Source of the DNA: Stentor roeselii
Taxonomy: Eukaryota > Ciliophora > Heterotrichea > Heterotrichida > Stentoridae
DNA: 64,000 nucleotides
Direction: 5' to 3'
Assembly: GCA_006503475.1 (NCBI GenBank)
Contig: RSEH01000170.1
Span: 42,209-106,208 of the forward strand
Below the pieces are notes generated by a model. It was not told the origin of the DNA. It did no database searches and saw only the letters and a program-made list of their open reading frames with translations. Below are positions 6,200-15,688 of the stretch, one piece after another. A program made the position numbers and the translations under genes. Within the stretch, counting starts at the first letter, position 1. Each line of letters opens with the position of its first letter.

Positions 6200-8014
6200 A
6201 TGGAAAATGAAGAAGTTGAACGACTTGAAAGAAGAGAGGGTAAAATATTTAAGGAGTCTTTTGAAGGGGATATCAGGAGAAGAAGTGGCGATACTGATAA
6301 TCAGCTGGTGGATTTTCTTAATTATAGAACTGAGATTTCTGATAAAGTGACCGAAGATAATCTTTTAAATTCTCATGAAATAGCCAAAGAATCAAAACTA
6401 ATGATTCAAGAATCCAACGAAAATAATTCAACAGAAAAAAAATCCCAAAACTCAGAAAACTCTCCACATCCAATAAAAGTTCAAGACATTGAAAAAAAAT
6501 CACTAAAGCCCAGTTCCAAAGACCCCGATAAAAAAAAATCCAAATCAAAAAACCAAGCGACTCACGAAAATATTCTAAAATTCTCCGACTTCTCAAAAGA
6601 GCTAAAAGAACTTCCAGAAAAGTCACTTAAAGAAATTCCATTTTCCGAAGAACTTACCCAAAAAGACTACCAAAGAAAAAATTCAGATTTTTTCGAACAT
6701 TCAGAACAATTCGAGTCGATTTTCAACTCCGAAGTGAAAAATCCAGTTTATCCTCAGTAATAAAAAATAAGGTCCAAGGGTGAAAATTCATTAAAAGTTG
6801 AAAACCAGAGTTTAAGGTTTGAATTACTAGAAAAAGACGAGACAATAAAAAAGTTAAGAAAAATCATCCAAGAGTAAAAAATACTCAGTCATAAAAATGA
6901 TTCAGTTTCAGTCCTCCAGTCACGAGTTAACACCCTGATTGAAGAAAAAGTAAAACTTACATATGAGAATGAACGCCTTTCAAAGACCCTCAAAGAATTT
7001 TCAGCGAAAATCGAAAACTATAAAAAAATCATAGAATCCAATGACTCGACTCACAAAAAAAGAGACTCTCAACTCGAGTCTCTTATGAACAAAACAAATT
7101 CATTAAAAACAGAGAATCTTTCTTTAAAAAATGAACTTCAAAAGAAAAACTCAGTCATTGGCAGTCTGCAAAATGAACTTTTAGAACTAAAACCATTGAA
7201 AGACTTGAAAAATCTTCCAGAAAAACACTTAAAAGTCGTTGAAGACTACAGAAAAATGATTGAGTCGAAAGATAATGAGATAGGTTTGTTGAAATCGGTA
7301 ATTAAAAATAACCAGACAGGATCAGTTCTTGTCGATAGCTTGAAAGTACCGGCGAAACTTCCTCCGATCAAGGGAAATCGCGCTACTTTTTCGCAGAAGA
7401 ATATTTTAAATGCGAAAACTGGATTTACAGTCAAATCTGGCACTCAAGATTATAGCAAAACTTATGTTCATGATAGAGATGAGGGAAAAATGAGAATTGA
7501 TAGGGATTCAAGAGAAAATCGAATTTTAGAAGAACGGAAAGAAAGAGAAGTTAAGGAAGAACAGGAAAAAATCAGGGAGAAGGAAGAGGAGGAGAGAATT
7601 AGGGCGAAGGAAGAGGAGGAAAAAATCAGAGATAAGGAAGAGGAAATGAGGAAAATTTATTTTGAAGCTGAACTGATGGAGAAGGAAGATGAACTTACTA
7701 AAAATTTTGAATTTTGGATAAGGCAAAACGAATTGGAAAAAGAAAAAGAAAGGCAAGAGATTGAGAATGATTTGATGGCGATTGAAGACAGCATGATGCA
7801 AGAATTTCTTCAAAATCTTGAAAACCTAAGAATCCTTCAAGAAAAATCTCAAAAAGAAGAACAAGACCGTCTAAATCTCGAAAAGCAACAAGAAGAGTCC
7901 AAAAAGCTATTCGAACCAAAAAAACATCTAAAACAAAAAGAACCATCATCAAATCCAAAAGGCCATTCCAAGCAAGGTTCAAATCCAAAACCAAAAAAAA
8001 AAATGATTAGTTAA
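6200..8014 (+). CDS. Long coiled-coil protein, two introns
   Basis: About 594 aa after removing two 15-nt introns: 6757-6771 (GTAATAAAAAATAAG) and 6874-6888 (GTAAAAAATACTCAG). Both would otherwise give in-frame stops, and the three exons join in frame into one charged protein. The N-terminal part is acidic and polar; the middle and C-terminal parts are almost continuous coiled coil, with an Arg/Glu/Lys-rich stretch of the type RILEERKEREVKEEQEKIRE at about 7520-7660. The C-terminus is very basic (PKPKKKMIS). Its stop codon overlaps the stop of the convergent kinesin gene. No named family recognised. Confidence 0.85.
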
Positions 8015-10041
8015 ATACTACTCCCAATTCTTAAATTAAGAAAGCTTGGTGCAGGTATTCGAGTTGGTTTTTCATTCATATTCGGTGAATTCAGAAAAGT
8101 GAGAGTCGGACTATGACTAACAACTCTTCCAATTTCCTTGATATTCAAATGAATCAAGTTTCTACTTTTTGTCTTAGTTTTATCAACTTTTGCTTTTCCT
8201 CTAACTTCACAGCTTTTTTTCCCTTCTCGGTTGATTGGGTCGAAGAAGTTTTTTCCTCTGGATTTCATTTTTTCATTGAGAACTTTTATTTTGTTGTCCC
8301 TGTCTTTGACTGCGATTTGATAGGACTCCAGGTCTCTGTGAAGTTTGTCTAGAGTTCTCATCAGGGAACTTTTTTCAGCTCTTTCTTTTTCGAGAAGGTT
8401 TAATGTTCTTTCAACTTCTTGGGTTTTTAGGTTTTTACGGATAAAAAAACCTAGATCTACTGCTTTCACTCTTGATGCTAGGTTCAATGTGCATACTGTT
8501 TCGCTTAGACTTTCATTACTTGGACTACAGTTGATAATCATTGTTACTACACTTTGACTACCTCCTAAAGTACTTTGAAGTAATTTAGTAAGCTGTGAGT
8601 TTCTATAAGGAACATGTTTTTGTTTATTTTCCAAAGCCGAAATAACATCCTGAAGTGCAGAAAGTGACTTATTAATATTCAAAGCCTCTTTCAAAGTCTC
8701 TCCCTTGACATTCGATTTGCCAACCCGTTCACTTCCAGCAAGGTCGACAAACTGTATTTTCCAAGTGAAATCCCCATAAAAAATAATTGTATAAATCGCA
8801 TGACTTCTTGAGCTTCTCTCATTACAATCAGTGAACTTAGTAGTCCTCCTCATCATCGACTCTTTGATAGTTTCAAGTGCCTTATCAGCCCAGACCCTTC
8901 CAAGTTTGACTTCAAAAATATCAGCATTATCCTTATTCTTACAAGGCGACTCACTTAAGCTCTGCCCTGCATTTTGACAAGGGTTAAGATTATGAACCTG
9001 TTCATTATAAACCTCGATACACTGAACAGAAACATCAACATCTTTGATATTCGCAAGCGTAGCAATTGACTTCTCAATCATCGAGTTCATGGTATATGTC
9101 TTGCCAGAGCCTGTCTGTCCATAAGCCAAAATACAAGCATTTTTTCCATTTAAAGCAGCAAGTACCCCATCATTGACCTGTTTAAACATCTGGTCCTCGT
9201 CCTGATCAGGGACGACAATATTTTCAAAGTCAAAAGTTTTGACTTCTGCCCTTTGTTTGTTTTCCTTTATTGAAATCTTGTTTGAGTGAATGTGAAAATT
9301 CGCCTTGTCCCAGGTCTCAGCCTTCAGAGGAGGACGGACCCTGATGACGACTTTAACAGACTGAGAACAGTCATTTGACTCCGATGAGTTCTTCCTCGAA
9401 TGACCCACTGAAGCGTTTCTCGAGGCAGGCTTCGAAGGGTTCCGCGACTGAGGCTTTGAAGGAATAGAAATCGTTTCATTTAAAACAATTTCTTTCTTTG
9501 CAGGCTTTTCTGGTCTTTCAGCTAATATCATGAGTTCTTGCTTCACCTCGTTAAGTTGGTCAGTGAGTCTTCGCATTTCTTCATCTTTTTTGCAGGAAAG
9601 TTCCTCGATTTCTTCTTTGAATAAAATGGCAGTTTCTTCAGCGGTGTAGAGTCTTTCTTCTAGTTCTTGCTTGGAGTACTCCAGGATGCGACTTGTTTGT
9701 TCCCATTGGTCGTTTAGGACTTCCAGATCGCGTTTTTGTAACTCGTAGTCTTTTAGCTTTTTTTTTAAGGTTTCGCATTCGACTGTGAGTCGAAGGACTT
9801 CATTTGACTCGAAGGTGAATTTTTGTAATAGAGAAGAGTTGGTTTTTTCGAGAGATTCTAATTTTTCTTCTAATTGTGAAAGCTTTTTTAGAAGCTTTTC
9901 GATTTCTTTGTCTTTGTCTTGGACTGAGTGCTCGAGTTCTTCGATTAGTTCGTGGGTTTGGGATATGTATCTATTTGGAAGTTACTCATCGTAGTCGGTT
10001 TTAAGATCTTTGTATTGGGTTTCGAAGTTTACTGATGACAT
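8011..10041 (-). CDS. Kinesin with NudE-like N-terminal coiled coil
   Basis: 671 aa. The start ATG is at 10041-10039 and a 15-nt intron (GTAACTTCCAAATAG) at 9971-9985 removes an in-frame TAA; without it the gene would seem to begin 150 codons later. Residues 1-170 are coiled coil. The part YELQKRDLEVLNDQWEQTSR then LEERLYTAEETAILFKEEIE aligns by eye with the NudE/NDEL1 core (ELEQ.NDDLER... then FE.RLNQAIERNA.LESEL). A Ser/Lys linker leads to a kinesin motor at about 223-530: VKVVIRVRPP, P-loop GQTGSGKT, switch I NERSSRSH, switch II DLAGSE. The post-motor ASRVKAVDLG resembles kinesin-14 types; a coiled tail follows. NudE proteins bind LIS1 and dynein, so the chain could link dynein regulation to a kinesin (inference). 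Confidence 0.9.
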
Positions 10042-10663: not shown

Positions 10664-11842
10664 TTAACTTATAAGAGTTTGCACTTTCTTTCCATTCTGC
10701 CAAGTGCCTTCCTTGGTGATTCCATTGGCACTGGTATAACTTCCCTTTCCATCCTGTTTGCCTTCTTTCCAGAACCCTTCATACTTTCTTCCATCTTTCC
10801 AAGTAAATACTCCGAATCCATGTTTTTTATCATCAAGATACTCTCCTTCATATCTCCTTCCATCAGCCCAAGTGAAAGTTCCTTTTCCATGCATTTTATT
10901 ATCTTTCCACTGTCCAATATACTTCCTTCCGTCACTCCAGAAATAAGTGCCATCTCCATGAATATTATTCTGAACAAAATTCCCTTCATACCAGCTTCCA
11001 TCAGCCCATTCAAATCGTCCAGTTCCATGTTTAAGTCCATTTTCATATCTTCCAGTGTACTTTGCACCGTCAGGCCAAGTTTCAGTCCCTTCTCCATGTT
11101 GCTTGTCATTTTTCCAGAACCCTTCATACCTTGCGCCACTAATAGACCCTTCATCAGGGGCACCTCTGACCTTGACTCCATAATTATGAATGTAAATTCC
11201 GAAGCCATTTGCCCTGTCATTTTCCCAGTCGCCTTCATAAACATCTCCATTAGCGTGAATGAGTCTTCCTTTGCCGTTTGCCTTGTCATTTTCCCATTCA
11301 CCTTCATATACTGACCCGTCGCTCCAATGTTGGGAGCCGTGGCCTTGTCGTTGATTTTCGCTGTTCCATTGTCCAGTGTAAATCGCGTTGTTTTCCATGT
11401 TGACTGCTCCTCGCTTGATTAATGATGAAGTTTTGGGCGCTGGATACCTGAATGCGCCGAGTTTTGCCATTACTTTCAATGTGGAAGTGTTGGAGTAGTC
11501 CGGCACTTGGCTTGGAGGGATTTCGGTAATTAAACGACGGGGATTCATTGGAAGGGAATTTTGAGAGACTAGAGACGTGTGAAGGGGTTGAAGGCTTTGG
11601 AAGGATTTTATGTTTTGGACTTGCTTTCGGTCGATGTAGCCTCGGAATAAAGACTGAAGACTGATTAGGTCGCTTAGTTCTAATTTCAGCTCCAGGTAAG
11701 ATGAATTCGCTTCTTGAAGGGAACGGTTTGAGAGGATCACTGCTTGAAGCATGTTGTTGTCGATCGCTTGTCCTGTGTTGTCGTGGACTAACTGCTTCTC
11801 GTCTAGGTTACCTCCGTGAATGCATGAACAATTGCTGCCCAT
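10664..11842 (-). CDS. Lipid-anchored IQ/MORN-repeat protein
   Basis: 392 aa. It starts MGSNCSC: Gly2 with Ser6 fits N-myristoylation and Cys5/Cys7 fit palmitoylation. An IQ-like motif ISLQSLFRGYIDRKQ lies near residue 60. From about residue 150 to the end run eight to nine MORN repeats of the strict type YEGEWENDKANGKGRLIHAN, DGRKYIGQWKDNKMHGKGTF. This architecture is common in ciliates and fits a plasma-membrane or cortical scaffold responding to calmodulin (inference). It converges on the small gene with 1 bp between stop codons. Confidence 0.92.
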   Translation of the reverse strand: MGSNCSCIHGGNLDEKQLVHDNTGQAIDNNMLQAVILSNRSLQEANSSYLELKLELSDLISLQSLFRGYIDRKQVQNIKSFQSLQPLHTSLVSQNSLPMNPRRLITEIPPSQVPDYSNTSTLKVMAKLGAFRYPAPKTSSLIKRGAVNMENNAIYTGQWNSENQRQGHGSQHWSDGSVYEGEWENDKANGKGRLIHANGDVYEGDWENDRANGFGIYIHNYGVKVRGAPDEGSISGARYEGFWKNDKQHGEGTETWPDGAKYTGRYENGLKHGTGRFEWADGSWYEGNFVQNNIHGDGTYFWSDGRKYIGQWKDNKMHGKGTFTWADGRRYEGEYLDDKKHGFGVFTWKDGRKYEGFWKEGKQDGKGSYTSANGITKEGTWQNGKKVQTLIS

Positions 11843-12073: not shown

Positions 12074-12799
12074 CTACACCTTCGGAGCAACTACCAGCTG
12101 CGATTTAACAGGTCCTAAAACAACTAAATCCTCAGCAATCCTAGCAACTTCCTGATAAAAAGTGCTCTGAACTCCATTAAAAACATTAAAAACCTGATCC
12201 TCAATAACCATTTCAATTTTTCCACTTTTATAAACCCTCATCTTCCCAACCTTTCCAAATCCCTGAGCCGGTAGTAGATCAGGTAGCTGCACAATGAACA
12301 AATTTCCATCTTCCATCTTTCGTTCATCACTTTGGTTGTTCTGATTAAAAAAAGGCAGAGTAAGAGGAGCATACTGATCAACTTCCATTGAGCTAAGCCA
12401 GGTATTTTCAGATCTTTCTTTTTCCTGATTTTTCACAATTTTATCCAATCCACTTTCCCCAGCAAGTCGAAAAGCGACTTTTTCAGGTTGTCTTTTAAAA
12501 GTTCTGGAAACAACAGTCCTAGGGTCTTGATTAGAATGTGAAATAAGAACTTTTGACGATAAAGAATGAGAAATTTCACTGAAACTTGAACTTCTAGGTC
12601 TTTCCGCTGCTAGTTCTGAGGACTTTTTCCTTGCAAGTTTTTTAGGAATTCGAACAGCGGCCGTATTCGGCAAGAACTTTTTCTTGGGTGTTAAAGACTC
12701 AGGCCTGAATGACATGATTGACTGAAGTCTTTTCGGCATCTCTTCTTCGGATTGAGTCCTAAATTTTCTATTTGCTGAAAAACGTGACTCAGGGTCCAT
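12074..12799 (-). CDS. RNA polymerase III subunit RPC4 (RPC53/POLR3D)
   Basis: 241 aa from the ATG at 12799-12797 (MDPESRFSANRK). An upstream extension of the frame has only an earlier internal ATG near 12867 and would overlap the divergent gene. N-terminal KKKFLPNTAAVRIPKKLARK matches the RPC4 entry motif (KxFxPN...R.). The C-terminal RPC4 core is clear: LFIVQLPDLLP, then GKVGKMRVYKSGKIEMVI, then VLGPVKSQLVVAPKV. RPC4 pairs with RPC5 in a TFIIF-like module of Pol III, acting in initiation and termination of tRNA and 5S transcription. It is shorter than the human protein (about 400 aa), mostly in the linker. Confidence 0.88.
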   Translation of the reverse strand: MDPESRFSANRKFRTQSEEEMPKRLQSIMSFRPESLTPKKKFLPNTAAVRIPKKLARKKSSELAAERPRSSSFSEISHSLSSKVLISHSNQDPRTVVSRTFKRQPEKVAFRLAGESGLDKIVKNQEKERSENTWLSSMEVDQYAPLTLPFFNQNNQSDERKMEDGNLFIVQLPDLLPAQGFGKVGKMRVYKSGKIEMVIEDQVFNVFNGVQSTFYQEVARIAEDLVVLGPVKSQLVVAPKV

Positions 12800-12808
12800 G
12801 TTGAGATT

Positions 12809-15688
12809 ATGAAATACTTCATGGTTTCCAACTACAGACAACAGATAAACCAGAATATTCAACATCTGGTTGAAGAACTCATTAAAAGTGAAACTGGACT
12901 CTCGGTACTGTCGACGTAGGTCAAAAGTAGAAACTTTCGAATTGCTAAAGACTTTTGTTTGAATAACCTCAACAGTCACCAGTTCCAAGAACCGGATTCA
13001 CTTAAAGTTAAGAGACATTTAACAGGTCTTGTTCAAAAGTTAAGAGTTAATTCTCAGATTACGAAAGCGAAAAGGTTGCAAGAGTTAATTGAAATGTTTG
13101 AGGAAAAGTCAAGTTCTGAATATAAATACTCGAAAATCTGGCTTTTAAGTCTAGTTTCGACTTCTCCTCTGCATAGTGAGATTATCTTTGGAAGTCCTGA
13201 TGAAGCCCAGCTTCGTATTTGCCATGAGGAAGAAATCAGCCTTTCGGATACCTCGTCTTTAGACTGGGAGGAGTCCTCTGAAGATGAAGAGATTCCTGAG
13301 GAAAAGGAAGAACGATTTGTTATTGTTGAAAGGCAAACTCCTCAAGACGCTCCTTCTCCTGATGACTCGGAAACTGAAGAGATTGAAGAAGGTTTACCTG
13401 ATGAACAAGGAAGGTGTTATGATAACCCTTGCACATTAGCGGACCAGTTTTACCAGTCATTATGTAGAAAAAGTCGACAAGGCAGTAAATCACTTATACT
13501 GCCTTGGCCATACACTCGAGTTACAGAGCGCGAAATAATAGACAAGATTTTTCCAATGCTTTTAGGCCTTAGCAACAATTTCTTCGAATTTGATTCAAGG
13601 TCTAATTCATTTCAGTCTCTATTGCAACTTGAAATATCTCATCTTACTCCAAGTTCTCTTTCAAATTTCTTATCTTTTTTCATGCAACTTTCTAGTCTTC
13701 TTATCTCCCTTCAGCTGAAAGCTGATGATCTAGGGAAAGATCCTTGCATTGCCTTTCAATATCTAGGCTTTACCTGCAATGAAATTTTATCTGAATTCCG
13801 GAAAACTATTCTTAGTATGCAAGACGAGTTTTCAGTGCAAACAGGAGGATTTTCTCGAGAATCTCTTCAAAAGTTCCCAGGCAAGTCGATTACTTTGATC
13901 AGTCTTCGAAGTGGTTTATGTTCAATGCTCGAGCAAGGGAAACTACTGCAAGAAGTGACTGAAAAGCTGGAAAATGACCCTGTGTTAAAGACTTGTTCAT
14001 TACTTGACCATTTGTTTTCATTGATTCAGTTTAACTATTCACTGACAGACCATTCTTCTTTTTCTATTTTTGTGAGACTTTTTCTAAGCTGCCTTCGCCC
14101 TTTCATCAGTGACTTGACCAGATGGCTCACTCAAGGCACTGTCAATGGTCTAGACCCAGGCTTTATGATAGAAAAATCCCCAGAAAGCACTTTACTCGTC
14201 GATGCCTGGCAATTGACATTCAAGTTAAGAAGTGCTTCAAACAAAGAAGTCGTTCCAAGTTTCATGAAAGGAATAAAAGATCAGGTGTTAACTGTGGGTA
14301 AAAACATGATGCTTATCAGAAAAATCGAAGAAAATATCTTAGATCATGTACTGCCCCCTGCTTCAGATTTACTTATGGGCCTAGAAAAACTGGTGATTTC
14401 GAAGATTTTTCAGGAATGCGGACACTTTTTAAACCATTCTCCTTCGAAAGAGACTTTGATGGTCTCTTCAATCAGGTGGGACAGGAACGTTCCTCAGCCG
14501 GTTCAGTTGAAAGAGATGAGACTTGCTTTTGAATTCGGACTTCGAAGTGAAGACCAGGCTGAATATGGTGAAAGGACTGGGAAGACTGAAGCCTTTAACA
14601 TTGGGGATATCATGAAGCCCAGTGAGTACCTGATTGAAAAGTACCAGCCTTGTGTTAACTTTGAAGAGTCTCCTGCGTATATTGTTAAATCTTGGACTTC
14701 TTTCAAACATGTCTTAGATGAGTCCATCGCGAAGCCGGTGACTCAACTGCATACTGATACTTGCTCTTATATCTTAAAGATTCTCAATGAAAAGTTTCAC
14801 CTTGATCGATACTTTAAAGCGATTCGAGAGGTCTTTTTACTTGAAAACGCTGAAAACATGCGTCCTTTATTGAAGTTTATCAATAAAACTCCTGATTTGT
14901 CAGCATGTAGGAATAACTCTTATGATCTCAGGAATAGTTTTCAAGAATGTCTCAAAACGACAAGCAATAAAGACTTGGCTAGTTTTTTTACTTGTGAGAT
15001 TCGACAATGTGAACCTAGTAGAAGTCCTATTGACTCAATTGAACTTTTAAGTATTAGTTTCGCTGCTCCAACACCTTTGGACATCTGCTTTGATGAGAAC
15101 TCGATTAAGATGTATCAGAAGCTTAACACCCGGATACTTCAAATTAAAAGGGCTGTCTTTTGTGCTAAAAATATGAAGTGGAGGTCGAGGAATGCTTTGG
15201 GTTTTGGACATTCTCATCGAAAATTTATGCTTTTTCAGAAAAAACTTATTCATTTTAGTAGTTGCTTTGAAGAATATGTTTTGCAGGATGTTCTTCATTC
15301 TTTGGCGATTTGGTTTCTTAATGAGAAGAATAAGGTTAAGAGTATTGATGAACTTAGAGCACTTCATAGTGATTATCTTGAAAAAGCTATTGAAAGGTGT
15401 CTTTTAAGTCATAAGAAAAGTCCTTTGAGTGCTGCTGTTAATGCTGTTTTTGTTGTTTGTGTTAGGTTTTTTGAATTGATGAAGAAAAATGAAAGTGAGG
15501 AGTTTGAAAGTATGGAATGTAAGATGGTCTTCGAAGACTTAGAGCAAAATTTTGAGACAGCGAACCGAATTCTCTTAAACGTGTTATCCAAGAGTTTGCA
15601 CAACAAGCGCCAGCTGAATTGTAATCCTTACTTAGACCTAAACAGCTACTTCACCTTGAACTTCAACCGATTTTACATGTTTGACTGA
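12809..15688 (+). CDS. Gamma-tubulin complex component, GCP5-like
   Basis: 954 aa after removing the 15-nt intron 12905-12919 (GTACTGTCGACGTAG); the first exon begins at the ATG at 12809 (MKYFMVSNYRQQ). Stop is TGA. The spliced N-terminus NFRIAKDFCLNNLNSHQFQE and the acidic DWEESSEDEEIP segment parallel GCP5 of animals. The following Spc97/Spc98 (GRIP) domains run from about residue 190 (VTEREIIDKIFPMLLGLSNN) to the C-terminus (SIDELRALHSDYLEKAIERC, NPYLDLNSYFTLNFNRFYMF). GCP4/5/6-type subunits form the gamma-TuRC, so the protein should act in microtubule nucleation at basal bodies. Only 9 bp separate its start from that of RPC4. Confidence 0.88.

Follow-up and report, generated by a model that had tools for sequence, protein, structure and literature searches.

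A family of kinesins joined to a NudE-like coiled coil in the ciliate Stentor roeselii

This work describes a gene of Stentor roeselii in which a coiled coil related to NudE precedes a kinesin motor in a single chain, together with a family of similar genes in the same genome. Profile comparison shows homology between these coils as a family and NudE, a kinship carried by the family profile and not by the sequence of this one gene alone. We assign a probability of roughly 0.55 to the reading that the chain unites a LIS1/dynein-binding NudE coil with a kinesin-14-like motor and would place LIS1/dynein at microtubule ends. The parts themselves are known; what is new is the covalent order of NudE coil, kinesin motor, and EB1-type tail, its expansion into a family, and the existence of members with degraded motors. 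No report of a NudE–kinesin fusion, of its expansion, or of such degraded members was found among the titles and abstract openings listed in searches of open-access literature. Separate adaptor proteins ordinarily connect kinesin motility with the control of dynein by NudE/LIS1. A covalent fusion that has expanded into a family offers a direct handle on the coupling of opposing microtubule motors; the family would naturally test the idea of a kinesin that carries or places LIS1-dynein, and it adds candidate noncatalytic kinesin heads outside yeast Vik1/Cik1.

Gene model and domain order

The window, meaning the whole stretch of 64,000 nucleotides that was analyzed, lies within contig C82; the assembly comprises 522 contigs and 44.4 Mb. 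The gene occupies positions 8011 to 10041 of the minus strand and runs from ATG to TAA. Conceptual translation of the unspliced frame encounters one internal stop, and excision of a 15-nt intron (GTAACTTCCAAATAG; 9971 to 9985, minus strand) within the coil region restores the frame. The coordinates, strand, and intron proposed in an earlier sequence-only reading proved right: once 9971 to 9985 is removed, a protein of 671 aa ending at TAA is obtained. Introns of 15 nt and use of the standard code are traits of Stentor-like heterotrich ciliates, and the genes that we read in this genome likewise combine 15-nt introns with long frames in that code. Four paralogs (C104, C323, C460, and C476) carry a 15-nt GT..AG intron at nearly the equivalent place in the coil; C14 and C146 have no intron there and an uninterrupted frame. 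The introns in four paralogs and the read-through in two support the gene model.

The 671-residue protein consists, in order, of a coil of about 170 residues, a disordered linker of about 50 residues, an intact kinesin motor, a second helix, and a tail. Boundaries were drawn in part from an AlphaFold model of the window protein, which was built from exon 2 only with 6 family sequences and has a mean pLDDT of 66. The NudE-like coiled coil (residues 1 to 170; 9517 to 10041, minus strand), with the intron inside it, is supported by a search of the Protein Data Bank (PDB) with a profile of eight coils and by the model, in which residues 21 to 170 form a single long helix. It is followed by a Ser/Pro/Arg-rich linker (residues 171 to 222; 9361 to 9516, minus strand) that is predicted to be disordered. 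The sequence-only reading had the coil running directly into the motor; this part must be amended, as the model places the roughly 52 low-confidence residues of the linker between them. After the motor, the model shows a further helix (residues 536 to 593; 8248 to 8421, minus strand) and then a disordered tail.

At gathering thresholds, Rfam matched nothing in the window. On the plus strand, a Glu/Lys-rich, highly charged frame (7085 to 8014), with no Pfam match at an E value of ≤0.001, is convergent with the kinesin gene and overlaps its end by 4 bases. Other neighbors are a MORN-repeat protein (10664 to 11842, minus strand; six stretches passing), an RNA polymerase III RPC4-like protein (12074 to 12988, minus strand), and a gamma-tubulin complex component (12959 to 15688, plus strand). 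The listed frames of the latter two overlap by 30 bases at the given start codons.

The coil and its family

Taken by itself, the window coil is too diverged to prove kinship with NudE. Its identity to NDEL1 is 21%; NUDE_C is absent among the 24 Pfam families listed for the coil (E ≤ 1) and among the 20 listed for the whole protein (E ≤ 10), and NDEL1 is absent among the 8 PDB matches of the protein (E ≤ 1). The profile of eight paralogous coils, on the other hand, retrieved NDEL1 (2v71) as the top match among 177,635 distinct PDB sequences (E = 5.4e-15, 58.7 bits). The alignment is colinear over the coil (profile positions 6 to 169 against 21 to 187), and the best unrelated protein, BST2, reached 26 bits; two further NudE entries stand lower in the same search (2v66, 23.7 bits; 7e1t, 20.5 bits). 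The claim that the first 170 residues resemble NudE/NDEL1 is therefore borne out by the family profile but not by the window sequence alone. In common with NudE/NDE1/NDEL1 (2v71), the fused family has a colinear coil of about 165 residues that keeps the E119/R130 pair and, in several paralogs, an N-terminal QSKELE-type segment; it differs in that the C-terminal half is replaced by the kinesin motor, second helix, and tail.

The search for further fusions covered this one genome. The window coil as the query returned 22 rows and the C323 coil 31; in the latter search a gap follows the first 12 rows (2.4e-6 for the 12th, 0.013 for the 13th). One more candidate, C344, was dropped (E = 0.014, with two stops inside the match). 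In all, the coil occurs in 12 genes: the motor is intact in 7 of them and degraded or lost in 4, and in 1 the coil is free-standing. Across the 7 intact members, mean identity is 45% in the coil, 21% in the linker, 53% in the motor, 54% in the post-motor helix (residues 526 to 595), and 29% in the tail, so that the coil is held nearly as tightly as the motor. A tree of the coils, from which C50 was left out, is short and without resolution and is of no use for comparison with the motor tree.

In the four genes C130, C153, C324, and C50 (L038, L039, L040, and L041, respectively), the coil is kept but the P-loop, SSRSH, and DLAGSE are gone. The family motor profile still matches C130 (4e-23), C153 (5e-12), and C324 (3e-10), with part of each score falling in the post-motor helix; no motor is detectable in C50 with this profile. 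A model of C324 built with just two degraded sequences is weak, at a mean pLDDT of 55; kinesins still appear within its first 30 PDB matches, at low TM-scores. These four genes are possible pseudo-kinesins comparable to Vik1/Cik1. The free-standing gene (near C128:55995-56681; L042, C128:53500-59500) encodes 224 aa with one 15-nt intron and without motor motifs. Its first PDB match is NDEL1 (E = 0.0027), and as a query it finds the fused coils (C323 at 1.8e-9).

Motor class and tail motif

That the gene encodes a complete kinesin motor, as the sequence-only reading had stated, was confirmed. PF00225, the sole strong Pfam domain of the window protein, matches residues 229 to 523 (E = 2.8e-71, 240.6 bits), and the P-loop GQTGSGKT (residues 303 to 310; 9097 to 9120, minus strand), SSRSH of switch I at residue 405, and DLAGSE of switch II at residue 428 are all readable. 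The motor domain as a whole (residues 223 to 525; 8452 to 9360, minus strand) was assigned by Pfam, PDB, and tree comparisons, by which the family motors are nearest kinesin-14, yet without its neck. In a PDB search with the motor profile, the best 11 distinct sequences are all of the KIFC3, KCBP, or Kar3 type, with KIFC3 at 237 bits versus 208 for the best other protein, a kinesin-1. In a 25-row tree, the seven family motors form one clade (100/100), and a branch with 99/98 support separates 11 other kinesins of this genome from the family and the kinesin-14s; the exact placement of the family is weak (62/48), and its branch of 1.64 carries a long-branch warning. A Foldseek search of the window model, which does not tell kinesin classes apart, gave KIFC3 first, and the best 50 PDB matches are kinesin motors except for the axoneme entry 7n61.

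The LRGNIRV-type neck, which we take to be the kinesin-14 neck motif, is absent before the window motor, where SVKVVIRVRP stands instead; LRGNIRV or LRGKIRV is present in three other kinesin-14-like motors of this genome (L052, L054, and L056). Relative to KIFC3, KCBP, Kar3, and Ncd, which include the nearest solved motors and lie on the same side of the 99/98 branch, the family replaces the rigid neck by a disordered linker and has a helix after the motor. Kinesin motors form a very large set in this genome, with 122 matches scored out of 167 candidates.

The low-confidence C-terminal tail contains TRIP (residues 655 to 658; 8053 to 8064, minus strand), an EB1-type [ST]xIP motif. Such motifs occur in the tails of 7 of the 11 long members, compared with a mean of 0.6 and a maximum of 5 in 5000 rounds of shuffling; since the members are related, these are not seven independent events. 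The tails without it are those of C460, C476, C50, and C130, the last of which has IRIP instead. EB1-domain proteins are present in the genome (7/7 rows over the cutoff), and the tail sequence suggests a candidate motif for EB1-dependent end tracking.

Proposed function and competing explanations

In the mechanism that we propose, the NudE coil would stand where the stalk of a kinesin-14-like motor would be. It would dimerize the protein and bind LIS1 as NDEL1 does, and perhaps the dynein intermediate chain too. Motor and tail motif would place this LIS1 load on microtubules, probably at or toward EB1-marked ends, and one chain would deliver or hold dynein-LIS1 there. Members with degraded motors may pair via the coil with intact ones or act as static holders. 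By its domain content, a single chain may in this way couple dynein regulation to a kinesin.

The residues of the coil bear on this proposal. According to PMC10511499, which uses a coil fragment of residues 1 to 195, E119 and R130 of Ndel1 matter in LIS1 binding. Their equivalents in the window protein are E102 and R113, within the motif LEVLNDQWEQTSR (residues 101 to 113; 9688 to 9726, minus strand). Throughout the family the pair sits in LExxxDxxxxxxR, with the glutamate in 12/12 coils and the arginine in all except C146, which has lysine. A profile search found two full LIS1 genes, C273 and C407 (2 of 8 rows over the cutoff), both of which keep the residues that presumably correspond to human R316 and W340. 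A Dynein_IC2 profile search of the genome gave no match, though no control matched either.

For dynein itself, the same source states that N-terminal glutamates are required (PMC10511499), and PMC9771362 describes the NudE coil of a fungus as a dimer that binds the dynein intermediate chain. A QSKELE-like N-terminal segment is present in C323, C476, C460, and C14; in the window protein it is altered, and the glutamate cluster is partly lost. At the position of NDEL1 E48, which we take to be a dynein-binding position, the window protein has isoleucine, and C323, C460, and C476 have glutamate. The window copy is also the only one of eight aligned coils with the heptad insertion TNSSLLQ (residues ~62 to 68; 9823 to 9843, minus strand). 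With the N-terminal motif placed by hand and C153 and C324 left out, the spacing from that motif to the LIS1 motif is 75 residues in eight members, 82 in the window protein, and 79 in free-standing C128. NDEL1, counted on aligned letters, also has 79, equal to C128 and different from the fused members.

The ground for the proposed mechanism is its closest working parallel, the plus-end transport of dynein by Kip2-Bik1-Bim1-Lis1 in yeast. In PMC4046564, Kip2 is an SxIP-bearing kinesin coupled to dynein through Lis1, the arrangement that is proposed here for the fused family. Kip2, EB1/Bim1, Bik1, and Lis1 are, however, separate proteins in that account, whereas the fused family has one polypeptide; in addition, Bik1 and Lis1 carry the coupling in yeast, and Kip2 moves toward plus ends and has its SxIP on the N-terminal side of the motor. 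Kinship with kinesin-14 suggests that the family motors may move toward minus ends, against the direction of Kip2, although the kinesin-14 neck is absent. Kar3 with Cik1 or Vik1 offers a second likeness, a noncatalytic head beside an active kinesin-14, to be compared with C130, C153, and C324; the available text of PMC4338441 describes no LIS1-type NudE coil there, and pairing of active with degraded members in the present family is a guess. Only tentatively, and doubting that it holds in full, we extend the proposal to a single-chain, end-targeted dynein loader combining motor, EB1-binding tail, and LIS1-binding coil. Active and inactive heads, drawn from seven catalytic motors plus several pseudo-motors, may then pair in different combinations through the NudE coil and so set where and how LIS1-dynein is placed in a large, patterned cell.

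The best-surviving alternative, which we consider unlikely but with a real chance of being correct, is that the coil was captured as a dimerizing stalk only and lost LIS1/dynein binding, leaving an ordinary microtubule-sliding or spindle kinesin. The low identity of the window coil to NDEL1 (21%) and the partial loss of its N-terminal glutamates fit such a history, as does a free-standing NudE, C128, for the classical job. Yet the E/R pair persists in 11 of 12 coils, those of the four genes with degraded or lost motors included, and coil identity is close to motor identity (45% and 53%), where more drift would be expected of a mere stalk. It is improbable, in our estimate, that the family serves to sequester or anchor LIS1, with the coil competing with dynein for LIS1 while the motor or pseudo-motor parks LIS1 on microtubules and damps dynein. 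Competition of Ndl1/Ndel1 with dynein for Pac1/LIS1 is treated in PMC10511499, and the four members without catalytic motifs retain the coil; a passive anchor, though, would have no need of the motifs that seven members keep.

We reject as very improbable the explanation that the likeness to NudE is generic coiled-coil similarity and the gene a kinesin-14 with an ordinary stalk. The decoys that bear on it number 1085: 500 heptad-block shuffles, 500 heptad-register shuffles, and 85 windows of the genome's other kinesins. With the eight-coil profile, NDEL1 scores 59.2 bits versus 21.6 for the best decoy; when the window sequence is left out of the profile, the two scores are 62.4 and 24.2. The sequence-only reading was to fall if generic coils matched as well as NudE; the family stands clearly apart from them, but the window coil alone came close to that outcome, with NDEL1 ranking first by less than 1 bit (12.6 versus 11.8). 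With the coils taken singly, NDEL1 precedes all decoys for 8 of 12; for the other four its rank is 2 (C128), 3 (C153), 32 (C50), and 321 (C324).

Pfam NUDE_C was of little use as a test of kinship. Most of this profile falls in the C-terminal half of NudE, and only its positions 3 to 64 of 177 are matched in the best member, with none in the window protein; the rest of it has no counterpart in the fused genes, where the motor follows the coil. NUDE_C matches 3/8 coils at E ≤ 1 (best, 1.4e-5), and a genome scan gave three rows, all below the cutoff: fused gene C323, the best genome-wide (22.2 bits), C396 (16.9 bits), and C476 (16.3 bits). That C396 scores like C476 would suit a generic coil; as C396 is unrelated and still scores above a fused gene, the profile by itself separates poorly. 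C396 is a long coiled-coil protein with neither kinesin motifs nor the LE..ND motif. Its frame (C396:8448-11630, minus strand; L010) spans at least 992 aa and has a globular end with a GxxxxGKT-like stretch (YNKGKTF).

Least credible of all, and likewise rejected, is an artifact, either two neighboring genes or a join made in assembly: conservation of the linker is low, but one open frame passes through coil, linker, and motor, and the same order recurs in six diverged paralogs on other contigs. When C14 was used to search for the nearest motors, C146 (72%), the window gene (61%), C323 (55%), C476 (54%), C460 (52%), and C104 (50%) were retrieved, and the next, C28, had 38% identity and 160 bits, down from 353.7 bits. 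With C14 itself, these closest motors make up exactly the set of seven that are intact and joined to the coil, which argues that the fusion is no mis-join of two genes.
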